A stretch of DNA of 48,094 bases from an uncultured Bacilli bacterium (GTDB lineage Bacteria; Bacillota_I; Bacilli_A; RF39; UBA660), in assembly GCA_944373095.1 (NCBI GenBank), contig CALWAK010000003.1, forward strand, positions 1-48,094, in the 5' to 3' direction. Made by a program: the position numbers and the translations under genes. The notes beneath the pieces are model-generated. The model was given only the letters and a program-made list of their open reading frames with translations. It was not told the DNA's origin and did not search any database. Positions 16,103 through 22,861 of this stretch are shown in pieces (position 1 is the stretch's first letter; each line of letters starts with the position of its first letter).

Positions 16103-17095
16103 ATGAAGTTAATTAATATAAAAAAAGAGTTAGATTTAAAAAAAGTAGAAAATTATAAAGAGATATTAGACCCCACTTATATTTATTTACCTATAAATAT
16201 AAATAAAAGTAAAGTTTATAAGGGAGAAATTATAGGAAATTATACAATAAGTATTTCTGGAAAAGTAAATAATAATATTATAGAAAATGATTTTATGGAA
16301 GATATAAAACCTTTAGATCAAGATTTTATTAATAAATATTTTTCTAAATATAATGATATAGCTAATAAAGATATGATTTATATTAATGCTATTGATAAAG
16401 ATCCATACTGCTATAATAGATATTATATTTTAAAAAATAATATGGATATAATAAATGATGCAATAGAATATATTTTAGATAAGTTTAATATAAAAAAAGC
16501 TACTATTGTTTTAACTTCAAGTTTAGCAGAATTTATAAGTAAACTTAAAGCTTCTACTACTTATAATAATATTATTTTTAAAGTAGTTGATGATTTATAT
16601 CCTATAGGGTTTAATAAAGTATTAAAGGATAAATTAAATATAGAAAATGAAAAATTAATTATAAATATTGAAGAATTATTAGATGTATATAGTTTAATTA
16701 AAAAAAAGATATTTAATACTGAAAAGTATATAACTATAAATGGTGATTTAATAAAAAAGCCAATAGTATTAAAAGTTAAACTATATACTAAATTAAATGA
16801 TTATTTAAAATTTCTTTCAGTTACTAGTAAAGATTCTATTATAATAAATAATAGTTTATGTGGTAAGTTAGTTACTAGTGAATATATAGTTACTAGAGAT
16901 GCTGATTTATTTATCATAGTTAAGTTAAAAAAGGATAATGTAGATTTATGTAATAATTGTGGTTTATGTTACCGTGTTTGTCCAGTTATGATTAATCCTT
17001 TAAAGAAGAGTTCTAAATGTATTAAATGTGGATTATGTAATTATATATGTCCATCAAAAATTAATTGTTTAAAGGTAGGGAATAATAATGAATAG
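16103..17095 (+). CDS. RnfC-like iron-sulfur subunit (short)
   Basis: It resembles RnfC, the NADH-side ferredoxin-like subunit of the ion-translocating Rnf complex. The C-terminus has two 4Fe-4S sites: CNNCGLCYRVCP and CIKCGLCNYICP. The preceding region has an RnfC-like fold pattern (YIYLPININKSKVYKGEIIG, ISGKVNNNI, DDLYPIGFNKVL, the last matching the YPxG region before the NADH-site loop). At 330 residues it is shorter than usual RnfC (about 430 or more), and the flavin/NADH motif is degenerate. It starts one base after uvrC and overlaps the RnfD-like gene by 8 bases. Confidence 0.75.
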   Translation: MKLINIKKELDLKKVENYKEILDPTYIYLPININKSKVYKGEIIGNYTISISGKVNNNIIENDFMEDIKPLDQDFINKYFSKYNDIANKDMIYINAIDKDPYCYNRYYILKNNMDIINDAIEYILDKFNIKKATIVLTSSLAEFISKLKASTTYNNIIFKVVDDLYPIGFNKVLKDKLNIENEKLIINIEELLDVYSLIKKKIFNTEKYITINGDLIKKPIVLKVKLYTKLNDYLKFLSVTSKDSIIINNSLCGKLVTSEYIVTRDADLFIIVKLKKDNVDLCNNCGLCYRVCPVMINPLKKSSKCIKCGLCNYICPSKINCLKVGNNNE

Positions 17096-17999
17096 TTATT
17101 TAAAATCTAAAATAAATAATAAAATTATAAAATCTATTTATTTTATTAGTTTAATACCAATCATTTTATATGCTACATATAAAAATGGATATATACCATA
17201 TTCTAAACATTTATGTTCTTTTAGTTATTTTATAAAACCTTTAATATTAAGTTTATTAAGTTATGTATTTGCTATATTATGGGAATATATATATTATAAT
17301 TTAATAAAAAAAGATAAAGATTATCTGATAAAGATGAAAAATAGTTATACTTCTTTATATAGTATTTTATTTTCTTTAATAGTACCTATAAATGTCAATT
17401 ATTTTATATATATATTAATTAATTTTATTTTACTTGTTATGCTTACTTGTTTTAAAAAAATTAGAATAAATTATATTGTATTATGTCGCATTTTATTAGT
17501 AGGTATATTAGTTATACTTGGAAAATATTCATACAACAATGTATTTGAAAATAATGTTTTAACTAGCTACACTACATTTGATATATTTTTTGGTCATGCT
17601 ATTACTTCAATTGGAGCATCTAGTACATTTTTGATTTTATTAGTTTACTTAGGATTATTAATCATACCAAGTTATAAAAAAAATATTTTATTAGAAATAA
17701 TTGGAACTTATTTAATAGTTATTTTAATATTTAGTATATTTGGTTATAATATTAAAGAAGAAATCAAGTTAATGTTAAGCAATGAAATCTTTTTTGCATC
17801 TTGTTTTGTTGCTAGTATATCTTTATTTAGTCCAATAACTATAAAAATGGAAATTTTATATTCTACTTTAATTGGTATTATTGGTTTTGTTTTATGTAAA
17901 TTTAATATTCATGAAGGAATTTATTTAAGTATTTTAATTAGTAATGTAATTTATCTTATTATAGATAAGATAGGTAATTTAAAAGTTAGCAATAAATAA
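17088..17999 (+). CDS. RnfD-like membrane subunit
   Basis: A 303-residue polytopic membrane protein with about eight or nine hydrophobic segments. The segment FDIFFGHAITSIGASSTFLI aligns with the RnfD/NqrB region GN-x-GG-SIGETSAL, the most recognisable RnfD signature. The position directly after an RnfC-like gene, with an 8-base overlap and GGTAGGGA as RBS, supports the call. The other Rnf subunits (A, B, E, G) do not follow: a terminator ends the operon here. Whether the pair works with subunits encoded elsewhere or has a different role cannot be told. Confidence 0.7.
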   Translation: MNSYLKSKINNKIIKSIYFISLIPIILYATYKNGYIPYSKHLCSFSYFIKPLILSLLSYVFAILWEYIYYNLIKKDKDYLIKMKNSYTSLYSILFSLIVPINVNYFIYILINFILLVMLTCFKKIRINYIVLCRILLVGILVILGKYSYNNVFENNVLTSYTTFDIFFGHAITSIGASSTFLILLVYLGLLIIPSYKKNILLEIIGTYLIVILIFSIFGYNIKEEIKLMLSNEIFFASCFVASISLFSPITIKMEILYSTLIGIIGFVLCKFNIHEGIYLSILISNVIYLIIDKIGNLKVSNK

Positions 18000-18071: not shown

Positions 18072-20114
18072 ATGAATAAAAGATTGGTTACAATACAAGA
18101 AGATTTAAAAGATTGTGGTGCAGCTTGCTTGCAATCAATTATTAAATATTATAATGGATATATATCCATGGAAAAAATTAGACAAGATACTTGTATAAGT
18201 AAAGATGGTATTACAGCATATAATCTTGTTTTAGCTGCTAAAAAATATGGTTTTCAATCGTATGGGTTAAAATTAGAACTCTCCAAATTAGATTCCATTC
18301 CAACCCCTTTTATAGCCCATTTTGATTATAATAAAAAGAGAACTCATTATGTTGTAGTATATAAAATAAATAAAACTAATTTAATTATAATGGACCCATC
18401 TATAGGAATGAAGAAAATTTCTTTAAATGAGTTTACAAGTATTTGGACTAATATTTGTATTGTAATGTATCCTATAAGTAGTATTATTAATGAAAAATAT
18501 GATAACACTTTATTTAATATTTTTTGGGAATTTATTAATAAAAAAAGAAATTTAATTATAAATAGTTTAATTGTTAGTATAATATTAAATTTATTATTAA
18601 TATTAAATAGTTTTTATACTAAAGTAGTTATTAATAGTATAAATAATTATGATAGTTATATTATATATTATATTTTTATATTCTTCTTCATTTCGATCAT
18701 TTTAAAACTAGTTTATAATTATATTAAAGATTATTATATAAATTATTTAAATAAAGATTTAGATGTTTTTCTCATAATTCCATTTATAAAACATATTTTT
18801 AAACTCCCTCTAAACTATTTATCAACTAAAACACCCGGAGAAATTTTAAAAAGAATCGAAGAATTAAATAGCATTAAATTATTGTTTACTGAAATATTTG
18901 TTTTGTTTGTTACTAGTTTAACACAAGTATTTATATCTTTTGTTATTTTATATAAAATTAATAATAATTTAACAATTATGCTAGTTATTATTTTATTAAT
19001 TTATATAATTACATCATTATTTTTTAATAAACCTATTAAGGATAAAATAAATGATAATATTATTAAAGATACTATAGTTAATGAATATTTAGTAGAATAT
19101 ATTAATGGAATAGAAACAATTAAAAATAATAATCCATTATATATTAATAGTAATATAGAAAATAGTATTTGTAATTTATTAAAAAATAATTTAGACTTAA
19201 ATAATTTTTTAAATAAATATAATACTTTTAAAAATAGTATTTATGATATTGGAATATTTATTATAAATACATATGGATTTATTATGATAATGAATAACGA
19301 ATTTAGTTTATTAAATTTAATAACATTTTTAAGTATAGTTAGTTATTTTAGTGAACCAATAAAAAATATGCTAAATATTATTCCTAAATATAATTATATA
19401 AAAAATACATTTAAAAAGATTAGTGAATTTATTAATTTAGAATCAGAAGAAGATTCGGTGAGTACTAATTTTATAAATGGTGATATAAAAATAGAAAATT
19501 TAGTTTTTTCCTATAATAATTATCAATATCCGATTAAAGATTTTAATCTCAACATTAAATGTGGTAATAAGGTTTTAGTATATGGCAAAAGTGGGTGTGG
19601 CAAATCAACAATTTGTAAATTAATTTATAGGCTATTTAATCCTATTAGTGGTTCAATTAAAATAGCAAATATTAATATATCAGATTATAATATTAATACT
19701 ATTAGAGAAAATATTAGTTATATAAGTCAAAATGATGTTTTATTTACGGATACTTTAAGAAACAATATTACTTTAAAAAAAGATATTAATATAAAAAAAT
19801 TAAACGATATTTTAAGAATATGTTGTTTAAATGAATTTATTAATAAATTACCTCTTAGATTAAATACTTTAATTCTTCCTAATGCTAATAATTTATCAGG
19901 AGGTCAAAAGCAAAGAATTATTCTTGCTAGAACTTTAATAAGAAATACAAAGATAATTATTTTAGATGAAGCATTAAGTGAAGTTGACTATAAAACTGAA
20001 GAAAAAATAATACTTAATTTAAAAAAATATTTTAAGGATAATACTATTATTTATGTTAGTCATAAAAAATATAAAAATTTATTTGATAGTGAGATTAATT
20101 TTGATTATGTATGA
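18072..20114 (+). CDS. peptidase C39-containing ABC transporter (bacteriocin maturation and export)
   Basis: A PCAT-type exporter that cleaves double-glycine leaders and secretes the peptide. The N-terminal C39 peptidase (about 1-135) has catalytic Cys15 in EDLKDCGAAC, His92 in THYVVVYKI and Asp108 in IMDPSIG, with the oxyanion Gln9 in TIQED. A six-helix ABC membrane domain spans about 155-440. The ATPase domain (about 475-680) has Walker A YGKSGCGKST, signature LSGGQKQRI, Walker B IIILDEA and the switch His in YVSHK. Its 680 residues are slightly short but complete. AGAGGGAG precedes the ATG. It is followed, with overlap, by the accessory gene and then two peptide genes with GG leaders. Confidence 0.95.
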   Translation: MNKRLVTIQEDLKDCGAACLQSIIKYYNGYISMEKIRQDTCISKDGITAYNLVLAAKKYGFQSYGLKLELSKLDSIPTPFIAHFDYNKKRTHYVVVYKINKTNLIIMDPSIGMKKISLNEFTSIWTNICIVMYPISSIINEKYDNTLFNIFWEFINKKRNLIINSLIVSIILNLLLILNSFYTKVVINSINNYDSYIIYYIFIFFFISIILKLVYNYIKDYYINYLNKDLDVFLIIPFIKHIFKLPLNYLSTKTPGEILKRIEELNSIKLLFTEIFVLFVTSLTQVFISFVILYKINNNLTIMLVIILLIYIITSLFFNKPIKDKINDNIIKDTIVNEYLVEYINGIETIKNNNPLYINSNIENSICNLLKNNLDLNNFLNKYNTFKNSIYDIGIFIINTYGFIMIMNNEFSLLNLITFLSIVSYFSEPIKNMLNIIPKYNYIKNTFKKISEFINLESEEDSVSTNFINGDIKIENLVFSYNNYQYPIKDFNLNIKCGNKVLVYGKSGCGKSTICKLIYRLFNPISGSIKIANINISDYNINTIRENISYISQNDVLFTDTLRNNITLKKDINIKKLNDILRICCLNEFINKLPLRLNTLILPNANNLSGGQKQRIILARTLIRNTKIIILDEALSEVDYKTEEKIILNLKKYFKDNTIIYVSHKKYKNLFDSEINFDYV

Positions 20115-20547
20115 TGATTTAATATTTATAAATAATAGTTATCTAATAAATTTAAAACCTAAAAAATATTTTTTGCCAATCTTAACTATTATGTTAATTA
20201 TAATATTAGTAGTATTTTCTATTATTAAAGAAAGTTACGATGTAAAAAAATATATTGGATATGTTACTTGCAATGATTTATGTGAAATAGATATTAGTTT
20301 AAGTTTAGATGAAGTTAGTAAAATAAAGGATGCTAGATACTTAAAAATAGATAATAATAATTTAAATATTAAAGAAATAGAAATTAGTGATGTTTTAGTT
20401 GATAAAAATAATAATTTAAATTATCAAATTATTTCTTATAAAGTAGAAAATATTAATATTGAGTCATTATTTTATGAAGTAAAAGTTTATTATAATAAAG
20501 AAATAATTTTAAAAAAGATATTTAATATACTAATGGGAAGTGAATAA
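20107..20547 (+). CDS. short single-pass membrane protein, putative transport accessory
   Basis: A 146-residue protein with a cytoplasmic N-terminus (MYDDLIFINNSYLINLKPKK), one membrane span (FLPILTIMLIIILVVFSI) and an extracytoplasmic part of about 100 residues. The layout recalls the N-terminal anchor of HlyD-type accessory proteins, without the long coiled coil or a full C-terminal barrel. I place the start at ATG 20107, overlapping the transporter stop by 8 bases. A longer upstream frame (from 20053) merely runs through the transporter gene. It is followed after 2 bases by the first bacteriocin gene, so a role in export or immunity is likely by context only. Confidence 0.7.
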   Translation: MYDDLIFINNSYLINLKPKKYFLPILTIMLIIILVVFSIIKESYDVKKYIGYVTCNDLCEIDISLSLDEVSKIKDARYLKIDNNNLNIKEIEISDVLVDKNNNLNYQIISYKVENINIESLFYEVKVYYNKEIILKKIFNILMGSE

Positions 20548-20549
20548 TT

Positions 20550-20690
20550 ATGAATTATTTGAGTGATACAAAGTTAAAAAATATTACTGGTGGTGGTATT
20601 AGTATTGGATTAGTTGTAGTATTAATAGGAATTGGCGCTTTTATTATTGGCTTTATTGATGGCTTAAAAAGACCATATAGTTGTAGATAG
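20550..20690 (+). CDS. class II bacteriocin precursor 1 with double-glycine leader (46 aa)
   Basis: A 15-residue leader MNYLSDTKLKNITGG matches the class II double-glycine consensus (conserved Leu residues, Ile at -4, Gly-Gly at -2/-1). Cleavage would give a 31-residue peptide with a very hydrophobic centre (ISIGLVVVLIGIGAFIIGF), a GFIDG (GxxxG) motif and a cationic tail KRPYSCR. The gene lies 2 bases after the accessory gene, in the operon of a C39 transporter that processes exactly such leaders. The RBS is GGGAAGTG. With the next gene it looks like one half of a two-peptide (class IIb) bacteriocin. Activity is inferred. Confidence 0.8.
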   Translation: MNYLSDTKLKNITGGGISIGLVVVLIGIGAFIIGFIDGLKRPYSCR

Positions 20691-20699
20691 GAGAATAAA

Positions 20700-20858
20700 A
20701 TGTTAAGTGATAGAGAATTATATAATGTAATTGGTGGTGCAACTGTTTTTAGTGCAACATTAGTAAACGCAGTAGCAAGATTAATAGATACAGTTATGGA
20801 AGCAGGAAGGCTATTAGGTACTGCTGTTCATATGTTTATTTACGGAAAGAGTTGTTGA
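20700..20858 (+). CDS. class II bacteriocin precursor 2 with double-glycine leader (52 aa)
   Basis: The leader MLSDRELYNVIGG is a near-perfect double-glycine leader (LSxxEL, hydrophobic at -4, GG). The predicted mature peptide has 39 residues, is amphipathic and helical, and begins ATVFSATLVNAVARLIDTV. It contains GRLLG (GxxxG) and AxxxA-type spacing and ends in GKSC. RBS AGGAG lies 5 bases upstream of the ATG. The pairing with the preceding peptide, both having GxxxG motifs and a Cys at or next to the C-terminus, fits a two-peptide bacteriocin. The single Cys in each could allow a disulfide between the peptides (speculative). Confidence 0.8.
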   Translation: MLSDRELYNVIGGATVFSATLVNAVARLIDTVMEAGRLLGTAVHMFIYGKSC

Positions 20859-20860
20859 AT

Positions 20861-20980
20861 ATGGTAAGTAGTGTAAAAAAAGTTGGATATTTTATTGGCT
20901 TATGGTTAGTTTTAACATCAGTTATTTATTTAATGTTAAATTTAGGAATACAAATTGGAACATATCTTGCTTGTTTATAA
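20861..20980 (+). CDS. 39-aa hydrophobic ORF, possible immunity peptide
   Basis: A very short ORF two bases after the second bacteriocin gene. It encodes an essentially single membrane segment (YFIGLWLVLTSVIYLMLNLG) with a short basic start (MVSSVKKV) and a polar end. It has no double-glycine leader, so it is not an obvious third bacteriocin. Its position, where immunity genes usually sit, and its membrane character make an immunity role plausible. The ribosome site is weak (GGAAAGAG about 10 bases upstream). The operon terminator follows its stop immediately, which supports the ORF being real. Confidence 0.5.
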   Translation: MVSSVKKVGYFIGLWLVLTSVIYLMLNLGIQIGTYLACL

Positions 20981-21062: not shown

Positions 21063-22861
21063 AATACGAATAAAAAAGGGTTTGTTTCCTCTTCATTAAT
21101 TTATTCTTTTATTATGGTTTTTATAGTTTTAGTAGCAGCAATAATAGGAACTTATGCATATTGTCAAGGTTTAATTTTTAGTAGTAATAGAGAAATTATG
21201 AATTCTTTAAATGATCGAATTGAAGTACAATATGTAAAATTAACTAATTATTTAGAAAATAGTGGTTTTGAATACCCTATAAATCCTGGTTCAGCAACTT
21301 ATAATATTGAAAAGTTAGCCGAAATACATTATGATAGTTCAAAAGGTTATAAATTAGACTCAACTATGGATGCATGGACAAATGATAATAATTATTCATA
21401 TCGTTATATAAAAAGTACAAGATATTCTGGGGATTATGCATTAATGTTAGATATTTATATATAGGAATTGATGGCCAAGGTGCTGATAATTTTAATATGG
21501 TGGCGGCGGTGCTATAATAACTCTTAATGACGGAAAAATGGTGGTTCAGGTGGTGGCTATTACGGAGGTAGGGTAAGTTCTACTAAAATTGGAACAGGTG
21601 GCTCTGGATATATAAATAATTCTAAATTATTTGATAAAACGATGTATTGCTACCATTGTGAGATTTCAAGTGATATAGGAACTAATACTTTATCTACTAA
21701 CAGCATTTATCATATATCGGATGGAGAATTTAAACCTCTTGTTTCATCATCAAAAAAGGGAAAAAGGTTATGTTAAAATTACTAAAATCGATAATTCTTT
21801 AGAAAATTATAAGGTGGCATGCAAATAAAAGAAACTGATACAGTTACCTTAACAGAATTACAAACTATTTATGCACATTGGACTTTAGGAGAATACGTAG
21901 TTACTTTTGGGGTTCGGTTCAATGGTGTGGATATTACCCAAACTAATAAAACCGTAACATCTACTAATAATTATGGAGATTTACCAACACCTACAAGAGC
22001 TAGTTATACTTTCGTTGCATGGTATATAGATGCAAATAGTGAAACTAAAATAACGTCTATTTCAGTAGTTACTATTGGAAAAAATCATACATTGTATGCT
22101 CATTGGAAGGCTAATGAACATACAATAACCTTAGATTCAAATGGAGGGAATTTAAGCAACACTAGCATTTCTCTTTTATATGACAGTAACTATGTTATTT
22201 TACCTACACCAACAAAAGATTAGTATAATTTTATTGGATGATATACAAGTAAAGATGGTGAAACATTAATAACTTCTAATTCTATTTATAAAACAGTAGG
22301 TAATCAAACATTATATGTTCATTGGTCAAATAGAAAATGTAATTTTAAATAAATATTGATTCTCATATTAATACTTTTAATGTTAAAGTATGAATAGATG
22401 CAACGATAAATAATCAAACGCTTTATAATCAATCTATACTATATCATACTGAATTTATGATATCAAATATAACTAATAAGACAGGATACCACTATTAAGA
22501 ATATACAAAAAATTGCTCAGTAGAAGAAATAGCAAGTGGTGATAGTACGACTTTAAAAATACGTACATCCGAAGAAAATGCATCTATTACATTAAACAGT
22601 GCTCCAAATATGTTTACTATAAAATTTAATGCAGGAACGGGTAACGGAAGTATGGCAGTTCAAACTTGTTCATATGATCAAAATTGTGTTCTTTCTTGTA
22701 ATTCATTTTATAAGAGTGGTTATACTTTTAGTTATTGGTTAGAAAGTAATGGTAAGACTTATATCAATAAACAAAATGTAAAAAATATATTATTTGAAAA
22801 TGGTTCAAGTATAACATTAACTGCTAGATGGAAATTTGGTATTTTTTATGAACCTTATTAA
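21063..22861 (+). pseudogene. decayed pilin-like N-terminus/Gly-rich/InlB B-repeat surface protein
   Basis: Coding signal runs through this stretch but is broken many times. It opens with a prepilin-like segment (NKKGFVSSSLIYSFIMVFIV) lacking any start codon. A Gly-rich region follows (GGGGAIITLNDGK, then GGSGGGYYGG, GTGGSGYINNSKLF), split by frameshifts at about 21465-21560. InlB B-type repeats come next (TLYAHW, YTFVAWY, LPTPT, LYVHW, LTARW). In-frame stops occur at 22221 (TAG), 22239 (TGA where the repeat has Trp), 22391 (TGA) and 22496 (TAA), with another frameshift near 22350. Longer surviving pieces are 21114-21464, 21819-22223 and 22610-22861. The intact ancestor was probably a cell-surface protein of about 600 residues. 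Confidence 0.85.

Follow-up and report, generated by a model that had tools for sequence, protein, structure and literature searches.

Gene organization of the locus

Our analysis of a stretch of 48,094 nucleotides from the draft genome of an uncultured Bacilli bacterium (contig CALWAK010000003.1, hereafter the window; genome 1.08 Mb, AT-rich, 72 contigs) revealed two very small precursor peptides, here termed pepA and pepB, encoded beside one C39 transporter. Comparison of the sequences with those of related genomes strongly supports that the two peptides carry matching double-glycine (GG) leaders and are inherited together with the transporter. It also gives good support to the view that they make up an export system of two peptides similar to class IIb bacteriocins, and this system is a core trait of the order. 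All genes of the locus lie on the plus strand.

The pepA precursor (46 amino acids, aa; 20550-20690) consists of the leader MNYLSDTKLKNITGG, the predicted cleavage site and a mature part of 31 aa (GISIG..GFIDG..SCR) with an RP motif and a penultimate cysteine. The pepB precursor (52 aa; 20700-20858) has the leader MLSDRELYNVIGG, followed by a mature part of 39 aa (ATVFS..GRLLG..KSC) that is predicted to be one long helix and ends in a cysteine. Both open reading frames (ORFs) are thus present as a preliminary description of this DNA had given them, and the GG leaders named there held up well: of the 101 small ORFs in the window, pepA and pepB alone fit a strict leader pattern, and not one match arose when the window was resampled 40 times with a second-order Markov model. 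A ribosome binding site had been proposed for each gene; the one of pepB is clear (AGGAG), that of pepA is weaker.

The transporter gene (18072-20114) encodes 680 aa with a C39 peptidase domain fused to an ATP-binding cassette (ABC) exporter and is by this domain content a peptidase-containing ABC transporter (PCAT). It has the catalytic cysteine (DCGAACL), the HY motif with the catalytic histidine, Walker A and LSGGQ, and it matched the Pfam families Peptidase_C39 (4e-37), ABC_membrane and ABC_tran. Its score against TIGR01193 was 368.7 bits, which is under the cut-off of 523.85. The Q...DC motif was found in 92 of 99 family homologues, most of the others being ORFs with a start called too far downstream. 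The pair had been placed directly after the transporter; in fact an accessory ORF of 146 aa (20107-20547), whose 5' end overlaps the transporter 3' end, sits in between. This gene had been missed, as had a third small ORF (orf3, 39 aa), which runs from an ATG at 20861 to 20980, or from an alternative TTG at 20852 that overlaps pepB. It encodes a leaderless peptide with one transmembrane (TM) helix, a GIQIG motif and a near-terminal cysteine.

Distribution across the order

A search with the transporter (E<=1e-60) in 196 genomes gave matches in 108, with one copy per genome and a single exception. The same family accounted for 103 of these 108 genomes, nearly all of them different genera. We examined 101 loci, three of which are on contigs that stop at the transporter, and in 97 of the 98 informative loci an A-B pair follows in the order transporter, optional accessory gene, A, B. 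In L040 and L060 the A peptide escaped the ORF filter and was identified by eye, and the contig of L062 ends inside B. In an order-wide search, a profile of the pepB alignment (A2) matched 359 of the 385 genomes and 111 of the 117 genera, and the genomes listed were all from one family. When 395 genomes were sampled across the class, every strong match came from that same family, and seven genomes of other families showed leader-length matches alone (E 2e-6 to 5e-4).

Loss or disruption of a peptide next to an intact transporter was encountered in just three cases: L138 is a decayed locus with a truncated A and no B beside it, L161 (G040) shows pepB alone, and G252 has a transporter of 27% identity near a contig edge without pepB. 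Peptides and transporter also tend to be missing together, since eight of 21 selected genomes had neither a good pepB match nor a transporter match at E<=1e-40 (G067, G079, G081, G101, G219, G224, G390 and G218, the last with a marginal pepB match). Divergent transporters (26-28% identity) still have the pair adjacent in G006, G012 and G038. Peptide conservation in related genomes extends across about 100 genera, and the distribution strongly supports that pair and transporter represent a near-universal and, as far as sequence comparison can tell, mainly vertical trait of one order.

The genomes of this family are about 0.5-1.9 Mb in size, and FabF, which most other families of the class possess, was not found in 36 of the 37 same-family genomes searched. 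Absent FabF and small genomes fit with the uncultivated gut order RF39, which was described to be without fatty-acid synthesis (PMC6784871).

Some loci depart from the common arrangement. At L127 (G046) two tandem A-B pairs that have diverged from the consensus follow the transporter, the second B being without cysteine. L124 (G098) has an extra GG-leader peptide 429 bases past the transporter and ahead of the pair, with neither GxxxG nor a C-terminal cysteine. The genome of the decayed locus L138, G017, also holds an orphan pepB-like peptide with GG leader (L163:5929-6090) near phage tail, holin and endolysin genes; this peptide had no match in viral contigs. A mobile origin of the system was considered and rejected, as window pepB had no tblastn match in phages and a hand-written, consensus-like pepB no match in plasmids.

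Conservation and evolution of the peptides

The alignment of 97 A-B pairs, with mature peptides of 29-44 aa, confirmed that the GxxxG motif reported for both mature peptides is essentially invariant. Its first and second glycine are kept in 94 and 96 of 97 pairs in pepA and in 95 and 97 in pepB. The leaders of both peptides end in GG or AG in all pairs. The single cysteine at or near each C-terminus, which had been singled out as unusual, is kept in 97/97 pairs for both peptides, and exactly one cysteine in both mature parts was found in 83 pairs, including the window. From the second glycine to this cysteine the distance is 7 for pepA and 12 for pepB (96/97 each). Further conserved positions are a proline in pepA (95/97) and the second arginine of an RR motif in pepB (89/97).

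Mean identity over 45 loci amounted to 41% in the peptides, against 35% in the transporter and 50% in the neighboring YqeY. The distances of the three correlate with each other (r 0.53-0.60, p 0.0005), and pair divergence tracks that of YqeY (Mantel r=0.53). Downstream of the system, rpsU was recognized in 53 loci and yqeY in 47, with identities assigned by eye. A divergence following YqeY and this shared downstream context point to mainly vertical inheritance. The strongest covariations between the peptides, not corrected for phylogeny, include the homologous leader positions A48-B31 and A44-B27, as expected for precursors that share a transporter. A possible salt bridge between the Asp of GxxDG in pepA and the Arg of GRxxG in pepB had a raw p=0.001 and was rejected, as the changes at the two positions failed to coincide on the transporter tree (one shared branch versus 1.25 expected).

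orf3 and the accessory protein

orf3 was detected in 46 of 96 loci, including the window, and mostly starts 7-23 nt before the end of pepB. The orf3 peptides lack a leader, contain a single hydrophobic helix and keep GxxxG without exception. Their profile aligns with the C-terminal part of pepB (hhalign probability 92.6, E 4.5e-7); where a genome has no orf3, the profile picks up pepB itself (e.g. G014, and weakly G103 and G100). Short hydrophobic profiles may inflate such scores, and the comparison with pepA served as a control; it gave no support for a relation between orf3 and pepA. The similarity makes orf3 a candidate for a mimic-type immunity peptide.

Of the loci compared, 69 have an equivalent accessory ORF and 27 do not. 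The protein matched no Pfam family. Its AlphaFold2 model (confidence, pLDDT, 91) shows a membrane anchor of one TM helix and a beta domain, and Foldseek returned MacA barrels with probabilities of 0.96-0.99 but E about 0.04-0.2, none of them significant. The model is thus suggestive of a resemblance to the barrel domain of membrane-fusion proteins, with MacA as the most plausible match. Eight of the 69 accessory proteins, from the window genus and a few other genera, contain a CxxxC motif (e.g. CNDLC, CQEEC, CEENC), possibly a thiol or metal site.

Relation to known families and systems

A literature search, with many journals outside its coverage, found no description of this peptide system. 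Comparisons to Pfam and PDB gave weak, leader-type or chance matches alone and no convincing PDB relative, so that assignment to a known mature-peptide family by these was rejected. The closest curated model is TIGR03949 (lactobin A/cerein 7B, class IIb). Window pepA scored 19.0 bits, just under the curated cut-off of 21.5; 39 of 41 pepA relatives matched at E<=0.1, and out of seven tested five scored above the cut-off (28.8 bits in a congener), one reached 21.0 and one had no match at E<=0.001. Window pepB did not match this model, nor did any other curated family fit it; three of its relatives gave no match at E<=0.001, 14 of 42 matched at E<=0.1 (best 1.4e-5), and a few may pass the cut-off.

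The preliminary description had read the genes as a probable two-peptide bacteriocin of class IIb beside a C39 transporter. The two-peptide nature and the link to a PCAT (97 of 98 loci) stand, whereas bacteriocin activity is something that we infer from the sequences. As in class IIb systems, two adjacent GG-leader precursors lie beside a C39 exporter, both contain GxxxG, and most of the pepA relatives tested exceed the model cut-off. Unlike in these systems, window pepB has no match, the distribution is core-like over the order, each peptide has an invariant cysteine near its C-terminus and half of the loci are without an immunity candidate next to the pair.

Gallocin A of Streptococcus gallolyticus likewise comprises two peptides, GllA1 and GllA2, and a third small gene for the immunity peptide GIP, whose product confers immunity and was modeled to resemble the peptides and to block the pair as a mimic (PMC10100652). 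Cysteines matter in both cases; however, the gallocin peptides are hairpins with two cysteines each in an intramolecular disulfide, whereas here both peptides have exactly one cysteine in 83 of 97 pairs. Gallocin A also has a thioredoxin-like helper (BlpT) and BlpHR control, while no helper or regulator recurs in the loci studied here. Carnobacteriocin XY has single-helix peptides as presumed here, but these are without cysteine (PMC10100652). Its immunity protein CbnZ has 42 aa, close to the size of orf3, and one TM helix in N-in/C-out orientation; the available parts of that report mention no peptide mimicry of the kind suggested for orf3 (PMC6957408).

Proposed function and alternatives

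As best explanation for these findings we propose a class IIb-like two-peptide system, to whose mechanism as a whole (export, pairing, permeabilization and protection by orf3) we assign a probability of roughly 0.6. The transporter would cut both precursors after GG and export them, assisted in most lineages by the short anchored accessory protein. Outside the cell, the hydrophobic pepA helix and the amphipathic pepB helix with its cationic end would pair in a membrane through the invariant GxxxG motifs, and the helix pair might then permeabilize this membrane. In about half of the lineages, including that of the window, orf3 would be made as an uncleaved, membrane-anchored look-alike of the GxxxG end of pepB and could occupy pepA, which would protect the producer. 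An essential role is probably shared by the two C-terminal cysteines, both of them invariant, one possibility being a cross-link that joins A to B, as in the disulfide-linked heterodimer suggested earlier. A DsbA/BdbD-like Thioredoxin_4 protein (PF13462, the only thioredoxin family searched) was found in one of 37 family genomes, which leaves an enzyme-made A-B disulfide without an obvious catalyst.

Bacteriocins are usually viewed as patchy, fast-changing accessory weapons. Several observations run against a bacteriocin. Conservation is core-like and order-wide instead of patchy, and the mature C-terminal parts (52% identity in A, 46% in B) are more conserved than the leaders (43% and 42%) over the 97 pairs, and the peptides more so than their transporter, opposite to the pattern expected of fast-diversifying toxins. 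The dN and dS values from a few species showed nothing that points to diversifying selection. Since dS approaches saturation in comparisons between species, the ratios are not firm and dN/dS is only roughly below 1. No orf3 or other adjacent immunity candidate was found in 50 of 96 loci, six of which have little downstream sequence. No modification enzyme, two-component system, regulator or pheromone gene recurs beside the operon, where the neighbors are housekeeping and sporulation-like genes. Furthermore, the members considered here are known from genomes alone.

Such observations would suit a non-killing housekeeping role common to the order, for example as surface or matrix component, in adhesion or in the own membrane, with the same export through GG leaders and a PCAT. 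The near-universal vertical conservation, the higher conservation of the peptides than of their transporter and the many loci without immunity candidate would all follow. There is also a precedent in Synechococcus, in which several small GG-motif proteins, EbfG1-4, and the C39 transporter PteB act in biofilm formation, although in a different organism and with four proteins, and the accessible parts of the report do not mention paired GxxxG helices (PMC4997328). Two distinct GxxxG helices, the matches of pepA to a class IIb model and the likeness of orf3 to a short class IIb immunity peptide speak against this role, which we consider unlikely but worth keeping in mind.

The glycine-zipper toxin Cdz of Caulobacter, compared here by description, provides another model. 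It resembles our system in its two parts, type I export by an ABC transporter and a small TM immunity protein, and such a pair can remain on the producer surface (PMC5380434), so that pepA and pepB might kill by contact, with the conserved cysteines tethering them to each other or to the surface. Cdz, however, consists of large surface-aggregating proteins of a Gram-negative producer, while mature pepA and pepB are short and the operon holds no tethering enzyme, which makes a surface-retained pair improbable. Slimmer still are the chances of secreted pheromones read by a receptor. Like ComC/BlpC, the peptides have a GG leader and C39 export, and there were a few weak matches to the models of these signals, but the operon has no recurrent pair of histidine kinase and response regulator next to it. 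The mature parts seek membranes, always come in pairs and are strongly conserved from genus to genus, where a species-specific signal should diverge.

If the class IIb-like reading is correct, a pair of this type is close to fixation in over 100 genera of an apparently common, uncultivated gut lineage, changing more slowly than its own transporter. Near-fixation and slow change would open a way to study the interactions of these auxotrophic bacteria with their neighbors. It is conceivable, though rather doubtful, that a bacteriocin-derived pair became a core function of this whole genome-reduced gut order, with self-protection by mimicry and essential cysteine chemistry. The pair might then open neighboring cells, e.g. 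to obtain lipids and further nutrients for which the order has no synthesis of its own, the peptide mimic being an optional self-protection and the cysteines serving in an A-B cross-link or another thiol use. We know of no class IIb member with such essential cysteine chemistry. As a class IIb-like system with roughly a hundred naturally occurring variants, the loci lend themselves to studies of GxxxG pairing, and the idea that a peptide mimic confers immunity can be put to the test on them.

Genomic surroundings

Upstream of the operon, spoIIIAH-like and gerE-like genes were recognized by eye in about 20 loci. In the window, adjoining RnfC-like and RnfD-like genes (16103-17999) lie directly upstream of the transporter. 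The gene after orf3 (21063-22861) is pseudogene-like, with ACG instead of ATG, a prepilin-like N-terminus and List_Bact repeats, and it is interrupted by several stops and frame breaks. Four further loci (L120, L122, L128 and L052) have ORFs whose N-terminus is similar.
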